64,000 bases of DNA, from assembly GCF_009882945.1 (NCBI RefSeq), contig NZ_WTUY01000002.1:312927-376926 (forward strand), written 5' to 3'. This stretch comes from Alcanivorax sp. DP30 (GTDB taxonomy: Bacteria > Pseudomonadota > Gammaproteobacteria > Pseudomonadales > Alcanivoracaceae). This document shows, piece after piece, positions 12,245-61,370 of the stretch. Under the pieces are notes generated by a model, which made no database searches, was not told the origin of the DNA, and worked only from the letters and a program-made list of their open reading frames with translations. The position numbers and the translations under genes were made by a program. Each line of letters opens with the position of its first letter. Positions within the stretch are counted from its first letter, which is position 1.

Positions 12245-13327
12245 ATGAATACCTGGGACGTGATAGTGATCGGGGCGGGCCAGGCGGGCAGTGCGGCGGC
12301 TTGGGATCTGGCCGCCGGGGGCAAGCGTGTTTTGGTTCTTTCGCGGGCTGCAGGAGCGGGCAAACCCTGTGCCGGTGGTGTCACCATGAAGACCCTGAAC
12401 CGCTATCGCTTCTCCATTGCTCCGCTGGTGCGGGAAACCGTGGATGCCTTGCATGTAAGCCGCTTCCCGCGCCAGGAGTCGGTGCTCAAGGCGCCGAATC
12501 CTTTCTGTGTGATGACCGAGCGCAGCGAGCTGGACCAGTATTGCCTGGCACAAGCGCAGGAACAGGGAGCCGTGTTCAAGCTTGTCCGCGGGATTGAGTC
12601 CGTGCGGCAGCACCAAAACGGTGTCGCGGTCACTACCCGAGAAGGGGATCAGTTTCAGGCCAGATTCCTTGTTGCGGCAGATGGCGCCAATAGTCGGGTA
12701 CGGCATTTGCTGGGTGAGCGCTCGTGGCAGGGTGCCATGGCCATCGAGGGGCACATTGACCGGGCGGACCTCAAGGACTATCCCGGTATGACACTGGATT
12801 TTCAGGCAATCAAAGGGGGCTATGGCTGGCTGTTTCCGAAGGAGGATCACGTCAATGTGGGGCTCTATATCTGGAAGCACGGGCTGGCGGCCACAGACCG
12901 CAGGGCGCTGGATCAGTATTGCCTGGATCGACTGGGTGTGAAGCCGCACAGGGTGTCCGGTTTCCCCCTGGGGACCTGGTTGCCTCAGGCTCGGCTTCGA
13001 CAGGAGCGGATCCTGTTTGCCGGGGATGCGGCAGGATGCAGCGAAGCCCTGCTCGGCGAAGGTATTTATGGAGCCGTGTTGAGTGGCCAGCTGGCGGCTC
13101 AGGCGCTGCTGTCAGGAGATCTGGATAATTACCGGGAAAACCTGCAGGACTGGCGTGAGGAGTTGATCAAGGTAAAGCAGCTTTCAGCCCTGTTTTACGG
13201 CCTGCTGCCGATTTCCGTTCCGATGCTTCAGGGACGGCTTGGAACGACGCTGGTGGCGGACTTTTCCCGGGGTTATACCTTGGGGCAGTGCAAGCGCCGC
13301 TGGCGTGGCGCCCCCAGCCTTGCATGA
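12245..13327 (+). CDS. FAD-dependent oxidoreductase, geranylgeranyl-reductase family
   Basis: A 360-residue flavoprotein. The FAD-binding motif VIVIGAGQAGSAAAWDL is at residues 5-22, followed by KPCAGGVTMKTL, which resembles the cysteine-glycine signature of geranylgeranyl reductases and related group A flavoproteins. The second dinucleotide motif is LVAADGANSRVRHLL and the third is LFAGDAAGCSEALLGEGI. Family members reduce isoprenoid double bonds or hydroxylate aromatic compounds; the substrate here is unknown. TAAGGAGG lies directly upstream of the ATG. It is divergent from mdh and convergent with the AraC gene. Confidence 0.8.
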   Translation: MNTWDVIVIGAGQAGSAAAWDLAAGGKRVLVLSRAAGAGKPCAGGVTMKTLNRYRFSIAPLVRETVDALHVSRFPRQESVLKAPNPFCVMTERSELDQYCLAQAQEQGAVFKLVRGIESVRQHQNGVAVTTREGDQFQARFLVAADGANSRVRHLLGERSWQGAMAIEGHIDRADLKDYPGMTLDFQAIKGGYGWLFPKEDHVNVGLYIWKHGLAATDRRALDQYCLDRLGVKPHRVSGFPLGTWLPQARLRQERILFAGDAAGCSEALLGEGIYGAVLSGQLAAQALLSGDLDNYRENLQDWREELIKVKQLSALFYGLLPISVPMLQGRLGTTLVADFSRGYTLGQCKRRWRGAPSLA

Positions 13328-28758: not shown

Positions 28759-28872
28759 CACGAGAGGCCAGGAAGCGAGTGACGCGTTTCGCGTAGCGAC
28801 AACCTTCGAACAGGCGAGGGTTGTCGCTTTTGACTTTCGAAACTCGTCCCTCGCAACTCGCTTGCTCTCGTG
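28759..28872. repeat. imperfect 114-nt palindrome with heptad arm after the acyl-CoA dehydrogenase operon
   Basis: Outer arms CACGAGAG (28759-28766) and CTCTCGTG (28865-28872), inner perfect stem AGCGACAACC (28795-28804) with GGTTGTCGCT (28819-28828). The right half includes 7-bp units of the NNAACTC kind at 28839-28859. Similar AACTC heptads recur at 35169-35196. The inner hairpin could end transcription of the operon, though it lacks a U-tract beyond TTTT. Confidence 0.65.
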
Positions 28873-30909: not shown

Positions 30910-33072
30910 ATGACCGATCGTATTCAGAAGGGTAGCCTCGAAATCGCTGCCGAACTCCATGATCTGGTAGTCAACGAGATTGCGCCGGGTACCGGCGTTG
31001 ACCCGGAACACTTCTGGGCCGAGCTGGAAGCCATCCTCAAGGACCTGGCGCCCAAGAACAAGGCGCTGCTGGAAAAGCGTGAAGCCATTCAGGCTCAGCT
31101 GGACGAGTGGTACAAGGCGCGCAAGGGTCAAACCATCGACATGGCCGAGTACAAGGCATTCCTGGCCGAGATTGGCTACCTGCTCCCGGAAGGCGATGAG
31201 TTCAAAGTCACCACCGAGAATGTGGATGAAGAAATCGCCACCATTGCCGGCCCGCAGCTGGTCGTGCCGGTGAAGAACGCCCGTTTCGCTCTGAACGCGG
31301 CCAACGCCCGCTGGGGCAGCCTGTACGATGCCCTGTACGGCACCGACGTGATTTCCAACGAAGGTGGCGCGGAGAAAGGCGGCGCCTATAACCCGAAGCG
31401 TGGTGCCAAGGTGATTGCCTGGGCTCGCGACTTCCTGGACAACTACTTCCCGCTGGCCTCCGGTTCCCACAAGGACAGCACAGGCTACGCCATTGTTGAC
31501 GGCAAGCTGGTTGTCTCCCTTGGTAGCGAAAAGACCGGCCTGAAAGACGAATCCCAGTTGAAAGGTTTCCTGGGCGACGCCGCTGCACCCACCGGTGTCC
31601 TGGTCAAGCACAACAACCTGCACGCTGAACTGCAATTCGACGCGAGCCACCCCATCGGTGCTGACGATGCAGCCAACATGAAAGACGTGCTGCTGGAATC
31701 TGCCATCACCACCATTCAGGACTGCGAAGACTCCGTTGCCGCCGTTGATGCCGAAGACAAGGTTGAGGTGTACCGCAACTGGGCAGGCCTGATGAAGGGT
31801 GACCTGCAGGAAAGCTTCGAGAAGGGCGGCAAGACTCTGACCCGTTCCATGAACGGTGATCGTGAGTACACCGCACTGGACGGTTCCACCCTGACCCTGC
31901 ACGGCCGCTCCCTGCTGCTGGTCCGTAATGTGGGTCACCTGATGACCAACCCGGCCATCCTCATGAACGGTGAGGAAACCCCGGAAGGCATCATGGACGG
32001 CATGGTCACCGTACTGGCCGCCATGCACGACCTGAAAAAGATCAACAAGCTGAGCAACAGCCGCACCGGTTCCGTCTACATCGTGAAGCCGAAGATGCAT
32101 GGCCCGGAAGAAGTGGCCTTTGCTGTTGAGCTGTTTGGCCGTGTCGAGAAGGCCCTGGGCCTGGCCGACAAGACCCTGAAGATCGGCATCATGGATGAAG
32201 AACGTCGCACCACCGTGAACCTGAAGGAGTGTATCCGTCAGGCCAGCGATCGCGTGATCTTCATCAACACCGGTTTCCTCGACCGTACCGGTGACGAAAT
32301 GCATACCTCCATGGAAGCCGGCCCGTTTGCGCGCAAAGGCGACATGAAGGGCATGGCCTGGATCAAGGCCTACGAAGACTGGAACGTGGATATCGGTCTG
32401 GAATGCGGCCTGCCGGGTCACGCCCAGATTGGTAAAGGCATGTGGGCCATGCCGGACGAGATGGCTCAGATGATGGCCAACAAAGCCGGTCACCCGAACG
32501 CGGGCGCCAACTGTGCCTGGGTGCCGTCTCCGACCGCAGCTACCCTCCACGTGACCCATTACCACGAAGTGAACGTGGCTGAGGTTCAGGCCAAGCTGGC
32601 CAGCCGTGAGCGTGCTTCGCTGGACGACATCCTCACGCTGCCGCTGCTGGATCGCGAGCTGTCTGCCGAGGAAATCCAACAGGAGCTGGACAACAACGCG
32701 CAGGGGATCCTGGGTTACATGGTGCGCTGGATCGACCAGGGCGTGGGCTGCTCCAAGGTACCGGACATCAATGATGTGGGCCTGATGGAAGACCGTGCCA
32801 CCCTGCGTATCTCCAGCCAGCACGTGACCAACTGGTTGCACCACGGCATCACCAACAAAGAGCAGGTGATGGAAACCCTGAAGCGCATGGCCGACGTGGT
32901 TGATCGTCAGAACGCCAATGATCCGCTGTACACGCCCATGGCCAAGAACTTCGACGGTTCCGTTGCCTTCCAGGCAGCCGTTGAGCTGGTGTTCGAAGGC
33001 TGCTCCCAGCCGAGCGGTTACACCGAGCCGGTTCTGCACCGTCGTCGCCGTGAACTGAAAGCAGGCAATTAA
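30910..33072 (+). CDS. glcB: malate synthase G
   Basis: A 720-residue malate synthase G, monomeric class and full length. It condenses glyoxylate with acetyl-CoA to malate. Family landmarks include [56 protein letters not shown] with the catalytic Arg, and the C-terminal [12 protein letters not shown]. In a fatty-acid or alkane consumer it completes the glyoxylate shunt or uses glycolate-derived glyoxylate. GGTAGGAGC precedes the ATG. A 722-residue open frame on the opposite strand is a codon-bias artefact. A heptad array runs over its stop codon. Confidence 0.97.
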
Positions 33073-33230
33073 TAATTAGTAGTTAATAATGAATAGCGGC
33101 GCGCTCGCGCGTCGTTGGTTGCCTGAAAGTAAAGAGGCCGGGCCCATCGTTGGGCGCGGCCTCTTGCGTTTAAGAAAAGACCAAAGCTGCTCGCGCAGTT
33201 ATTAATTATTCATTATTAACTATTCATTCA
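33069..33230. repeat. inverted A/T-rich heptad arrays around a hairpin at the glcB 3' end
   Basis: Left array 33069-33096 is four heptads of TTAATAA/TTAGTAG/TGAATAG type; the glcB TAA stop lies inside the first. Right array from about 33197 to 33230 has the inverted units (NANTATT) and covers the stop of the convergent gene at 33220. The hairpin 33133-33164 is between them. The same A/T heptads recur at 50504-50531 and 61303-61330. Confidence 0.8.
33133..33164. terminator. 14-bp stem hairpin between convergent genes
   Basis: AGAGGCCGGGCCCA (33133-33146) pairs with TGGGCGCGGCCTCT (33151-33164), one mismatch, TCGT loop. It is the probable bidirectional terminator for glcB and the secretin-N-like gene, although a strong U-tract is missing. 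Confidence 0.7.
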
Positions 33231-33966
33231 CTTCCACCATCACCTCAATCGGCAAAAACACCGTCTGCCGTGACGTCTGATATTGGCCAATTTCACGCTG
33301 GCTGCCCTGGCTGACGGTATTGATGGCGCCCATCTGTTGCCATTGGCCGGGCTGAAGGCGCAGGGTGCTGCTGGTGTGCTGGGTGGCGGCGATGCCGGGG
33401 CCGCCGGGTTGGTCATGGCGCTGCTGGATCTGCAGGGTAACCGAGCCATCGGTGTTGACCTGGGGCGTGACCTGGATGCCGCGCTCGAGATTGTGCAGCA
33501 CCGTTCCGTAGTCGCCGCCACTCAGCGCCAGCAGGGTGCCTCGATTGATGCCGGCGGGGTAACCACTGAGGGTGCGAATGCGGTAATCATCCTGGCGTTG
33601 CAGGCTTTCCCGTTGCTCCTGCACATGAACCCGGGCGCTAGTCTGGGCGGGCCGGCGGACTATATCGATGCCGGCACCGGAACGGGAGGTCTCGGCGCTG
33701 CCGGCCCGGCGCAGGTAGACGATGACGGAACTCGGTTTGCTGTTCAATTCGCCCAGTACCGATTGCAGCTCATGGAAATTCTGGTCGGTGGTGCGGATGA
33801 TCAGCTTGCCCTGATAGGCATTCACAGTGCCTCCCTCCGGTAGCAGCGGGCCAATCACCGGCACCAGTGCACCGGCATCTGGCCGGGAAATGACATGCAG
33901 GCTCATGTCTTGTGCCGAGGCGTTCAGGCTGCATATCAAAAGCAGGAAAAACAGTGTCCGTCCCAT
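33220..33966 (-). CDS. secreted protein with secretin N-domain-like fold
   Basis: A 248-residue protein with a signal peptide (MGRTLFFLLLICSLNASAQD); AAGGAAACCC before the ATG at 33966 supports this start over one at 33987. Residues 45-90 (NAYQGKLIIRTTDQNFHELQ, VLGELNSKPSSVIVYLR) resemble the N-domain (NolW-like) repeats of type II/III/IV secretins. The rest (LALSGGDYGTVLHNLERGIQ, VTPQVNTDGSVTLQIQQR) looks like the start of a secretin beta domain but stops before the pore. No secretion or pilus genes are adjacent. It may be a stand-alone periplasmic protein. Confidence 0.6.
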   Translation of the reverse strand: MGRTLFFLLLICSLNASAQDMSLHVISRPDAGALVPVIGPLLPEGGTVNAYQGKLIIRTTDQNFHELQSVLGELNSKPSSVIVYLRRAGSAETSRSGAGIDIVRRPAQTSARVHVQEQRESLQRQDDYRIRTLSGYPAGINRGTLLALSGGDYGTVLHNLERGIQVTPQVNTDGSVTLQIQQRHDQPGGPGIAATQHTSSTLRLQPGQWQQMGAINTVSQGSQREIGQYQTSRQTVFLPIEVMVEVNE

Positions 33967-34030: not shown

Positions 34031-34166
34031 GTCGGACGTCAGACGTCTGTTGTAAAAATAGAGAAAACCGGTAGCACCGGTTGCCACCAGAATCTGGCAG
34101 GTGCGCAGTTTGCTGATACAAGGCAAGAGGTTGTTGCTCTTGGCGTCTGACGCTCAGGCGTCCGAC
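34031..34166. repeat. inverted heptad arrays flanking a stem-loop
   Basis: Left array 34031-34051 has three units of the GTCNGAC type; right array about 34139-34166 has four in inverted phase (GTCCGAC at 34160-34166). Between them AACCGG (34066-34071) pairs with CCGGTT (34077-34082). The layout matches other elements of the window, with a different heptad. It occupies the divergent space before the TrmB-like gene. Confidence 0.6.
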
Positions 34167-35093: not shown

Positions 35094-35168
35094 AGGGCTG
35101 GTCAAACGTGGCGAGTTCCCGGTTGGGAAAGCCCTCCACCGGAGGTGATGGTTTGGCCTTTGCCTTTC

Positions 35169-35196
35169 GAAACTCGATACTCAAAACTCGCAACTC
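35169..35196. repeat. array of four heptads (NNNACTC type)
   Basis: Bases 35169-35196 split into four 7-bp units, each ending ACTC. The preceding TTTC and the units match the array at 28839-28859 after the acyl-CoA dehydrogenases. No clear inverted partner was found here. Confidence 0.65.
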
Positions 35197-50466: not shown

Positions 50467-50505
50467 AAAAATACCCCCGGCTCGAGAGAGACGGGGGTAT
50501 TTTTT
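50467..50505 (+). terminator. rho-independent terminator after clpA
   Basis: AAAAATACCCCCG and CGGGGGTATTTTT form a 13-bp stem with a 12-nt loop and a T-tract. Works for clpA and, with its A-tract, possibly for infA coming the other way. Confidence 0.92.
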
Positions 50506-50531
50506 AGTTATTAACTATTAATTAATAACTG
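50504..50531. repeat. array of A/T-rich heptads after the clpA terminator
   Basis: TTAGTTA/TTAACTA/TTAATTA-type units at 7-bp spacing, ending about 10 bp from the infA stop (50541). Same class as 33069-33096 and 61303-61330. Only a single TGAATAA is visible on the clpA side of the hairpin. Confidence 0.6.
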
Positions 50532-57936: not shown

Positions 57937-58321
57937 TGTGGGTCTGGTGCCCTGGCTGGCGGTAGCCGCTGGCGGCGCGACGGGGGCTTGCCTGCGCTTT
58001 GGCACCACTCTGTGGTTGGGCGTGCCAATCATGCCAGCCTGGCCCTGGGCTACCTTTTCAGTGAATCTGCTGGGAAGCTTCCTGTTCGGTTTGCTGACAG
58101 TAGCGCTGGTCAGCATGACCAGCAGTGAAGCCTGGCGCCTGGCAATCATGACTGGCATGCTCGGCGCCCTGACCACCTTTTCCACCTTCTCCTTCGAGCT
58201 GGTGCGTATGGTTGAAGTCAAAGCTCATGGGCTGGCAGCCGGGTATGCGATGGCATCGGTACTGGCTTGTGTCACCCTGGCAATGCTGGGCCTGACACTG
58301 GGACGACTGATTTTTGAATAA
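57929..58321 (+). CDS. crcB: fluoride ion channel CrcB (Fluc)
   Basis: A 130-residue membrane protein with four TM helices. Fluc motifs are GGATGACLRFG, FSVNLLGSFLFGLL with the pore Asn, and GMLGALTTFSTFSFE with the Phe-box and Thr-Ser residues. It exports fluoride as an antiparallel dimer. GGAGAGGCGG before ATG 57929 favours that start over 57917. No fluoride riboswitch is seen; the gene overlaps rarA. Confidence 0.93.
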   Translation: MTDVGLVPWLAVAAGGATGACLRFGTTLWLGVPIMPAWPWATFSVNLLGSFLFGLLTVALVSMTSSEAWRLAIMTGMLGALTTFSTFSFELVRMVEVKAHGLAAGYAMASVLACVTLAMLGLTLGRLIFE

Positions 58322-58336
58322 CTTGAGAGGGGCAAT

Positions 58337-58478
58337 CTACAAGCTACAAGCTACAACGCGAAAAAGGACTCATGTTTAAGCTGAAGGTCTTTCGCCGCGC
58401 ACAATTCGCGGCGAAAGTGCCAATCGTTTACTGAACGTCTTGTCCGCGTTGCAGCTTGTAGCTTAAAGCTTGCAGCTC
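58337..58478. repeat. inverted heptad arrays around a perfect stem-loop, crcB-serS
   Basis: Left array 58337-58357: three units of CTACAA(G/C). Right array 58451-58478: four units of NNAGCT(T/C), the inverse complement. Between them CTTTCGCCGCG (58389-58399) pairs perfectly with CGCGGCGAAAG (58407-58417), 7-nt loop. This is the clearest example of the element in the window. Confidence 0.85.
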
Positions 58479-58498
58479 GTTTGATCTGGAGTAAGTAA

Positions 58499-59794
<1,296 letters not shown>

Positions 59795-59866: not shown

Positions 59867-59901
59867 CGCGTCAGGCGTCATGCATTCGGCGTCCGGCGTT
59901 T
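59867..59901. repeat. array of five heptads (GGCGTCN type) upstream of cysG
   Basis: Five 7-bp units, consensus NGCGTCN, end 13 bp before the cysG ATG at 59915. On the other side a single CTGACGCG (59802-59809) is the inverted match, and ATGCC (59819-59823) with GGCAT (59832-59836) could form the central stem. The cysG ribosome site lies just outside the array. Confidence 0.6.
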
Positions 59902-59914
59902 ACCGGGAGCAGTC

Positions 59915-61309
59915 ATGGAATTCCTACCCATCAGCTGGCGACTGCAGGGCAAACAGGCCCTGCTGGTTGGCGGCGGTGAAGTGGCCTTGCGCAAAGGTCG
60001 ACTTTTGCACCGATCCGGTGCGATTCTGAAAGTTGTTGCTCCTGAGGTGTGCGATGAGTTGCGCCAGATTGTGGCAGAAGGCAGCGGCAAACTGCTTGAG
60101 CGAAACTTCGAAAACAGTGATATCGAGCAATGTGCCTTAGTGATTTGCGCTACTGACGACGCAGCCGAGAATGCTCGCATCGCGAACCTGGCCGGTGAGT
60201 GCAATGTGCCCGTTAACGTGGTGGATAATCCTTCCCTGGGAGACTTTATCTTTCCGGCCATCGTGGACCGTTCACCAGTGCTGATCAGCATCAGCTCTTC
60301 CGGGGCATCACCCGTTCTTGCCAGAAAGCTGCGCAGCCAGCTGGAATCCACGCTTCCTGCTCGCTGGGGACGGCTGGCCGACCTGATGGCTCGCTTTCGG
60401 CAGCCACTGAAAGACAAGCTCGACAATGTGGGGGCCAGGCGCCTGTTCTGGGAGCAGGCTCTTGATAGCCCCATCGTCGAGAAAGTCATGGCGGGAAAGG
60501 ACAGTGAAGCTGAGGCCATGCTGGCCCAGGCCATTGATGCAGCTGATGCCACGTCATTAAGTCGGGGGGAGGTGTATCTGGTGGGGGCGGGCCCCGGGGA
60601 TCCAGATCTGTTGACCTTCCGGGCCCTTCGCTTGTTACAGAAAGCGGATGTGGTGCTCTATGACCGGCTAGTGGGGCAGGGAATTGTAGACCTGGCCCGC
60701 CGGGACGCAGAAATGGTCTACGTGGGCAAGGCGCGGGACAAGCACGCACTGCCCCAGGACAACATCAATGAGTTGCTGGTGCATTACGCCAAACAGGGCA
60801 AGAAAGTGTGCCGGCTAAAGGGCGGTGACCCCTTTATTTTTGGCCGCGGCGGTGAAGAGATAGATCTGATTGTGCAGGAAGGCATCGACTTTCAGGTGGT
60901 GCCGGGCATCACCGCCGCCAGCGGTTGTGCTGCCTACGGGGGCATTCCGCTGACTCACCGGGATCATGCCCAATCCGTGCGTTTCGTCACCGGCCATCGC
61001 AAGGATGGCACGGTGACACTGGACTGGGAGCATCTGGTCAGTGACACCGAGACGGTGGTGTTCTACATGGGTCTGGTTGGGCTGCGTCAGATTTGTAATC
61101 AACTCATTGCCCACGGCCGCCAGGGTGAAACGCCCATCGCATTGGTGTCGCGGGGCACAACAGATCTACAGGAAGTGATTACCGGTACCCTGGAGAGTTT
61201 GCCGGACAAAATCGAAGGCCGGGAGATTCATGCGCCCACTTTGATCATTGTGGGTAGTGTGGTCAGTCTCCATCCGAAGTTTGGGTGGTTCAAAAAGAGC
61301 AATGAATAG
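59915..61309 (+). CDS. cysG: siroheme synthase (multifunctional CysG)
   Basis: A 464-residue fusion. The N-terminal third is the precorrin-2 dehydrogenase/sirohydrochlorin ferrochelatase ([37 protein letters not shown] (in part), [16 protein letters not shown]). The C-terminal SUMT domain begins near 215 with [20 protein letters not shown] (in part) and contains [16 protein letters not shown] and the end [12 protein letters not shown]. It makes siroheme for sulfite and nitrite reductases. An A/T heptad array begins inside its stop codon. Confidence 0.96.
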
Positions 61310-61330
61310 TTAATAGTGAATAATTAATAG
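61303..61330. repeat. array of four A/T-rich heptads overlapping the cysG stop
   Basis: Units TGAATAG, TTAATAG and similar at exact 7-bp spacing. The cysG TAG stop (61307-61309) ends the first unit. Same class as the array at the glcB stop. Confidence 0.75.
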
Positions 61331-61370
61331 CTAAACCATAAAAAAACCAGGTTGCAGAGATCTGGCGTAG

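Follow-up and report, generated by a model that had tools for sequence, protein, structure and literature searches.

Palindromic elements with inverted heptad-repeat arms at the 3' ends of genes in Alcanivorax

The intergenic spacers of Alcanivorax sp. DP30 and its relatives contain non-coding palindromic elements, mostly located just 3' of stop codons, in which two inward-pointing arrays of 7-base units flank a centre, in most cases with a hairpin of its own. At least one class of these elements is dispersed as near-full-length copies, and at one locus followed across species different heptad classes occupy the same place. On balance we lean slightly towards reading them as dispersed palindromes of the ERIC/REP kind, with arms that would be tandem recognition sites and with turnover as whole units. 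REP/BIME and ERIC are dispersed intergenic palindromes found near gene ends; we know of none with heptad arms, and the likeness to ERIC is one of general architecture. In favour of this reading we counted the location of the arrays close to stop codons and mainly between convergent genes, the polarity of the arms, the clustering of the gaps between them, the free positions inside the heptad, the neighbouring units of class B, the shared class of the two arms, the copies of class D, the class differences at the crcB-serS locus and the inward layout in a Pseudomonas-like genome. Against it we counted a search that found neither a binding protein nor a mobilising enzyme, the small number of clean inserts, the absence of recent near-identical copies, the neighbour results for classes A and F, a classing procedure that favours conserved cores, a deviating class A centre at crcB-serS, and the non-independence of orthologous places in related genomes.

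The window, a 64-kb stretch of the 3.62-Mb genome, holds the focal element in the spacer between a gene that ends at 58321 and a gene that starts at 58502, presumably crcB and serS (names carried over from the original prediction). The anatomy described earlier for 58337-58478 was borne out: CTACAAG-type units, a perfect 11-bp stem and inverse-complement units are all read in the sequence. The left (5') arm is of class A (CTACAAG units; CAAGCTN) and was located by TRF at 58333-58356 with period 7; its units start at 58337, and its lag-7 score of 15 was reached by none of 1000 shuffles. Direct reading places a CGCG at the inner border of each arm (58357-58360 and 58445-58448), the first of which is present in family members. 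Between the borders lies the central hairpin (58389-58417), an 11-bp perfect stem (halves 58389-58399 and 58407-58417) with a 7-nt loop, and the right (3') class A arm of inverse units (NAGCTTG; TRF) closes the element at 58449-58477. The predicted RNA fold of 58331-58482 reaches -67.1 kcal/mol versus -40.2 (sd 3.5) for 100 shuffles. This element resembles other elements mainly through its arms, and a scan of the window against Rfam 15 at gathering score gave no match. The protein encoded upstream of the focal spacer matched the named relatives Alcanivorax sp. S6407 and A. nanhaiticus.

We confirmed that the 7-base periodicity of Alcanivorax spacers is real. An autocorrelation scan was run on 464 kb of this genome (G000), consisting of the window and 20 evenly spaced 20-kb stretches, in which a purpose-made simple hexamer model called 411 genes and left 276 spacers. 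By a strict score, lag 7 was found in 16 spacers, lag 14 in 9 and lag 21 in 4, and each of the remaining lags from 4 to 24 in 0 or 1. By a softer score (at least 9), the lag-7 excess was clear, with 38 of the 276 spacers versus a mean of 1.0-2.0 in shuffled spacers; lag 14 appeared in 25 spacers and lags 5, 6, 8 and 15 in 3, 0, 1 and 0, respectively. Lag 9 (8 spacers) and lag 11 (7 spacers, versus 1.0 in shuffles) were also raised. A strong inverted repeat accompanied 75% of the 51 spacers with a lag-7 score of at least 8; the figure was 13% for the 225 remaining spacers and 0.7% for shuffles. The predicted genome-wide family, inverted in layout, built on a period of exactly 7 bases and carrying stem-loops, is supported. 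Lag-7 spacers were also present in the relatives: 14/45 and 24/113 in G011, 7/43 and 39/105 in G007, 5/43 in G003, 3/44 in G014, 3/46 in G015, 17/123 in G005 and 11/116 in G001. As tandem 7-base units in mainly intergenic positions, the arrays share a trait of STRR/LSSR repeats. Perfect arrays of ∼7-13 units also lie at the ends of contigs C15, C16, C17 and C18 of G000 (L001, L011 and L019); heptad arrays seem to break the assembly, since these four contigs begin or end inside them.

Ten places in the window, the focal one included, had been listed as 7-bp periodic, and each was tested singly by its lag-7 score against 1000 dinucleotide shuffles. Nine stood (the score was reached by 0-17 shuffles) and one, 1927-1994, did not (313/1000). 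The inverted layout was likewise seen in part: several of the places have both arms, but 265-299, 35169-35196, 59867-59901 and 61303-61330 have one clear array apiece, and at 50504-50531 an array is clear just to the right. The most complete example is a class D element (TTAATAA/TTAGTAG-type heptads) between convergent genes at 33065-33232, with a central hairpin AAGAGGCC...GGCCTCTT at 33132-33166. Two arms are also present in a class C element (CGAGTNN heptads; 28759-28872; 17/1000 shuffles) and in a class E element (the self-palindromic heptad GTCNGAC; 34031-34166; 7/1000 shuffles), whose flanking genes were called as divergent; the latter is weak by period alone, because its lag-15 score equals its lag-7 score (8). 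Single arms comprise a class G arm (TGCGT heptads; 263-297; 9/1000 shuffles), an array of E-like GGCGTCN heptads (59868-59899; 1/1000 shuffles) and, by lag-7 score against shuffles, a class C right arm (35152-35196), a class D left arm that overlaps the end of the gene stopping at 61309 (61294-61334), and a class D right arm preceded by a terminator-like hairpin (50498-50528). In the segment 50441-50540 that hairpin is kept across species and the heptads to its right switch class, being D in G000 and G003 and G in G011, G007 and G014.

Orientation and gene context were counted in 842 non-redundant spacers (orthologues included) from five genomes: 276 from G000, 246 from G007, 233 from G011, 44 from G014 and 43 from G003. 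The same five genomes underlie the counts of heptad positions, terminators and neighbouring free bases; G015 (46 spacers), G005 and G001 stand outside all of these. Arrays of at least two motif heptads occurred in 126 of the 842 spacers. Neighbouring arrays no more than 200 bp apart faced inward in 57 cases and outward in none, and a further 10 pairs pointed the same way; because examples had been used to set which orientation counts as left-arm in a given class, the polarity measures consistency within classes. Inward pairs of a single class numbered 13 for D, 12 for C, 9 each for A and B and 5 for G, and 9 pairs were of mixed class; by genome, 23 came from G011, 21 from G007, 12 from G000 and 1 from G003. 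The gap between the motif arrays was 98-111 bp in 27 of the 57 pairs and 38-58 bp in 13. Arrays were found in 62/156 spacers between convergent genes, 29/225 and 29/279 between genes aligned on the plus and minus strands, and 6/182 between divergent genes (Fisher p = 4e-18 for convergent and 3e-8 for divergent spacers, treating as independent spacers that include the non-independent orthologous places of related genomes). The outermost array lay a median of 21 bp from the stop codon (quartiles 7 and 110), and the G000 sample contained 1 array in 400 kb of coding DNA versus 43 in 58 kb of spacers.

These positions, 3' of stop codons and between convergent genes with depletion between divergent ones, together with the very stable folds and the terminator look of some centres or adjoining hairpins, are what would be expected if the element acted in RNA, as a transcribed hairpin that shields mRNA 3' ends or brings about termination there, its arms being kept for base pairing. 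The pairing itself gave no such signature in either of two comparisons. The two arms of one element pair no better with each other than with arms of the same class from other elements (20.6 versus 20.2 for class A and 26.6 versus 26.0 for class B), and mismatches on the transcribed strands of 28 elements in co-directional spacers were G.U in 22 cases and A.C in 26, both samples being small. Selection for pairing would predict matching free positions in the two arms and a greater tolerance of G.U than of A.C on transcribed strands; with neither comparison pointing that way, though in small numbers, we favour recognition of the units on DNA. As substitutes for terminators the heptad elements also made a poor candidate: over all convergent spacers, terminator-like hairpins were present in 18/62 with heptads and 23/94 without (p = 0.58). 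Within the subset of 80-400 bp there may be a lean towards substitution, the hairpins being somewhat rarer with heptads (10/49) than without (21/65). We therefore regard a function at the RNA level as possible but unlikely.

To examine the composition of the units, arrays were detected by period alone and then classed; a class assignment needs a 70% match to the core and so favours conserved cores, and 30 of the 296 arrays are unclassed. With 10 perfect arrays set aside, class B (AAAGTTN) is at least 95% constant at six positions, and its free position is C, G or T at about one third each, with A rare. Class E (GTCNGAC) has a uniform N and 81-94% at the other positions; class A holds six positions at 84-97%, with A 0.62, G 0.21, T 0.17 and C 0 at the seventh; in classes C, D, F and G two or three positions are looser. 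The free base seldom matched the base that opens the following unit, doing so in 0/54 internal cases for class A, 1/39 for B and 0/22 for F, a tally that includes long perfect runs and leaves out the spacers of joined windows. Neighbouring free bases were compared over all 842 spacers, setting aside perfect runs of four or more units (four in A, one each in B and F). They were identical in only 2 of 40 pairs in class B (11.4 expected; 0 of 2000 permutations as low), in 12 of 35 in class A (13.6 expected, hence no avoidance) and in 11 of 13 in class F (9.2 expected). We propose that a sequence-specific DNA-binding factor could recognise each heptad as one unit, given that most positions are constrained with one or two left free, that the orientation of the arms is constant and that pairing seems not to be under selection.

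Simple slippage offers another account of such arrays, in which polymerase contact favours 7-base units, arrays grow where they are tolerated and inversion arises by template switching in hairpins. In many prokaryotes heptamers are reported to outnumber all other long repeats, with polymerase contact as the suggested cause (Mrazek, 2007, as cited in PMC4679880 and PMC4692102). The long perfect arrays, with runs of up to 15 units, fit this account; so do the changes in length between orthologous arrays and the mostly identical units of class F, and identical or near-identical units, as slippage leaves them, occur in some arrays of classes A and F but not in class B or at the free positions. Uniform decay of a slippage array, however, would not yield one free position in seven. 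The inward polarity of 57 to 0, a free position next to fixed ones, the differing neighbours of class B, identical cores in several families, near-full-length copies and a 9-base analogue of the same layout all tell against slippage as the origin, and we consider it very unlikely. Something appears to read the units, since polarity, free and fixed positions and arm spacing are hard to obtain by slippage alone; slippage would then extend or shrink the arms once their units are identical.

The architecture was compared among 60 non-redundant places collected from 11 hand-picked seeds in three rounds of profile search; 47 of these are at least 100 bp long, orthologues and one locus counted twice being among them. 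Complete elements typically span 140-170 bp. Most of the 47 follow one design: a heptad arm, an AACGCG or AAGCGCG border, ∼25-35 bases, an inner hairpin (for example GCCCGCGC...GCGCGGGC or GAGGCCGCGCCC...), another ∼25-35 bases, a CGCG border and the inverse heptad arm. The exceptions lack the inner hairpin or are nested or cut. Terminal inverted repeats, a trait of MITEs, are thus present. Similar bodies bear the classes A (CAAGCTN), B (AAAGTTN), N (CAAGTTN), F (CGAGCTN) and G (CACGCNN) and, matching less strongly, D (TTAA(C/T)AG); arms of like kind also occur in C (CGAGTNN) and E (GTCNGAC). The two arms shared a class in 40 of the 47 elements; permutations gave 14.6 on average and 26 at most. 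The view that only the period is conserved and that the heptad classes are unrelated in sequence is not supported, as the heptads have conserved cores that are found again in other genomes. CAAGCTN, CGAGCTN, CGAGTNN, CAAGTTN and AAAGTTN are connected by one-base steps. Common ancestry of all classes was considered and set aside: classes A, B, C, D and G align best in the left-arm orientation, which was merely the best of 16 choices and by a small margin (4.77 versus 4.65).

Two further arrangements were seen. C-class elements at L089:11483-11904 and 12613-12892 are nested within a pair of GTAGGAGC/GCAGGAGC REP arms. A 9-base analogue consists of CACWGAG nonamer pairs in 15 of the 842 spacers, 5 of them two-armed and inward and none outward, with CAC(A/T)GAGNN nonamers in the spacers starting at L083:4153, L084:11903 and L088:7028 and in their orthologues; lag 9 remains raised after the nonamer spacers are removed (16 versus 5.4).

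Copies and orthologous spaces were then compared. The D element at 33065-33232 has at least 22 other places in the genome that match it at 140 or more of 168 positions (70-78% identity), a lower bound made by hand from 40 of 86 candidates. Its body was found in 4 of 194 genomes of the order, all in one family, with four candidates scored per genome. Within a genome, the best pairs among the 47 elements are ∼70% identical over 150-168 bases or 81% over 104; recent near-identical copies were absent from the 47, and the best full-length match of the D element is 78%. The presence of an array varies between orthologous spacers: both members of a pair carried one in 7 cases for G000 and G011 (G000 only 2, G011 only 14, neither 65), in 8 for G000 and G007 (G000 only 4, G007 only 15, neither 70) and in 9 for G005 and G001 (one only 7 and 2, neither 96). 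Array length varies as had been anticipated, with scores of 161 and 14 round one centre in G005 and G001, and three spacers of that pair hold elements of different class as judged by eye.

The crcB-serS spacer was followed across the genus. Among 17 genomes it holds a class A element in 4, class N in 1, class B in 2 and no element in 2; three others have fused short B-like palindromes, and the remaining five a REP that bears a GCGTC array on one side. At L047-L049, from three genomes (one of 3.1 Mb), the element has shrunk to a ∼22-24-bp palindrome with outer B heptads and the centre lost. The centres were compared with the near relative G011 standing in for G000. The class A centres of G011 and G016 resemble each other, with a score of 37 that none of 161 background scores reaches, the class B centres of G007 and G003 are weakly alike (2% tail), and pairs of different class never go beyond the 8% tail. 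Such a pattern would be expected if whole elements had been replaced at a single site. The centres may instead drift fast, since that of G012, also class A, is unlike those of G011 and G016 (16% and 36% tails). We suggest that the elements could spread or replace one another whole, by insertion or ectopic recombination, and that they may persist chiefly at 3' ends because they are nearly harmless there or help to keep adjacent transcripts apart.

Mobility of this kind could also mean that the elements are MITEs, with heptad arms serving as tandem transposase-binding sites for an enzyme encoded elsewhere. The inverted arms, the full-length similarity in classes D and B, the patchy distribution across genomes and the presence or absence at orthologous spaces agree with this. 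In 663 orthologous pairs, however, neither a target-site duplication nor a clean empty site was found for a plain heptad element; only 2 inserts were cleanly bounded, one a 264-bp composite ending in a heptad array and the other free of heptads. With no linked enzyme and no recent identical copies besides, we hold a MITE origin to be highly improbable. Our search found neither a binding protein nor a mobilising enzyme. Three Y1 transposase (RAYT) matches (L172-L174, G000:C22) sit among other REPs, each near REP-like GTAGGAGC or GTGGGAG palindromes; the heptad arrays at L173 and L174 are farther off, with a gene in between. RAYT was accordingly rejected as the mobiliser of heptad elements, since all three Y1_Tnp loci adjoin other palindromes and show no linkage. 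The REPs here, with GTAGGAGC-like tags, lie beside RAYT genes; the heptad elements do not flank them.

Beyond the close relatives, 9 of 274 genomes of the class contain AGCTTNNAGCTTNNAGCTT. For the order, 20 of 293 genomes contain CAAGCTNCAAGCTNCAA, patchily even inside a genus; its reversed control was found in 4, of which one is also among the 20. Some of the AGCTTNNAGCTTNNAGCTT and CAAGCTNCAAGCTNCAA matches are lone arms or have a coding appearance. G476, a Pseudomonas-like genome (genus guessed), gave 130 overlapping motif matches and none with the control. Inspection of 20 of its 30 motif-chosen loci yielded 16 places, 5 one-armed by that pattern and 11 two-armed; all 11 face inward, with a shorter centre. 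In an unselected 80 kb of this CAAGCTN-rich genome, 0 of 37 spacers had heptads. Other members of the order gave 0 lag-7 spacers in 20 kb from each of 10 genomes, a weak null because the gene caller, trained on 20 kb, found just 3-9 spacers in each. In the gammaproteobacteria G221 (L128) and G149 (L123) there are heptad arrays of AACTTTC, a row of GACCCA type and ∼22 GAGCCAG units.

Where the earlier statement knew of no described equivalent, inverted convergent heptads are reported from Xanthomonas and heptad stems from a Nostoc tRNA-Leu intron (PMC4692102 and PMC4476775). As described by Rehm et al. (2015; PMC4692102), the heptads are inverted GGGNATC in Xanthomonas, with 70 and 75 convergent two-array cases in two genomes, and GGGGA(C/T)T in Nostoc. 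The Xanthomonas and Alcanivorax repeats have in common intergenic 7-base units, inward arrays (57 versus 0 here), few arrays at divergent genes and array lengths that differ between species. Xanthomonas has a single G-rich, quadruplex-capable class with a preference for the space between aligned genes, whereas Alcanivorax has several classes, no G-tracts (GGG is missing from the class consensuses), a strong preference for convergent genes and a centre that is often near-fixed in length with its own hairpin. Kaasalainen et al. (2015; PMC4476775) describe degenerate heptads, TDNGATT or NNTGAGT, in the P6b stem of the Nostoc tRNA-Leu group I intron. There one of two classes occupies the place, with repeated replacement between lineages, a likeness to the differing classes at one place in Alcanivorax, and a single base separates NNTGAGT from class C (NNCGAGT), stem orientation aside; but P6b is a single place within a self-splicing intron and the Alcanivorax elements are a dispersed family. 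The TAACTGA repeats of Beggiatoaceae (MacGregor, 2015; PMC4679880) are likewise intergenic heptads, patchy across phyla and intermixed with other heptamers, but they are direct, lie chiefly just upstream of start codons and include a single indirect case. In the open-licence literature we found no account of such elements in Alcanivorax; the heptad motif letters occurred only in papers unrelated by title, and the accessible part of an Alcanivorax dieselolei small-RNA paper (PMC9788540) does not mention heptads. Inverted heptads (Xanthomonas) and class-switching heptad stems (the Nostoc intron) are thus already known. Apparently new are the coexistence of many classes, the constant polarity, the favoured spacing, the free positions, the replacement of classes at one place and the 9-base sister form.

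We concluded that this family of palindromic 3'-end elements is real and unusual, and that slippage accounts for its long perfect arrays but not for its design. A wider and quite unlikely idea is that the Alcanivorax, Pseudomonas and Xanthomonas elements and the Nostoc intron palindromes are one general kind, built of interchangeable, degenerate 7-base words (with a 9-base sister) that would be read on DNA by widespread machinery swapping arm-and-centre cassettes at fixed sites. The puzzle of the bacterial preference for 7-base repeats becomes testable. Heptads matter for annotation, transcript ends and the genome evolution of this clade, because they occupy 62 of the 156 convergent spaces in the five genomes counted and end several contigs of the present assembly.
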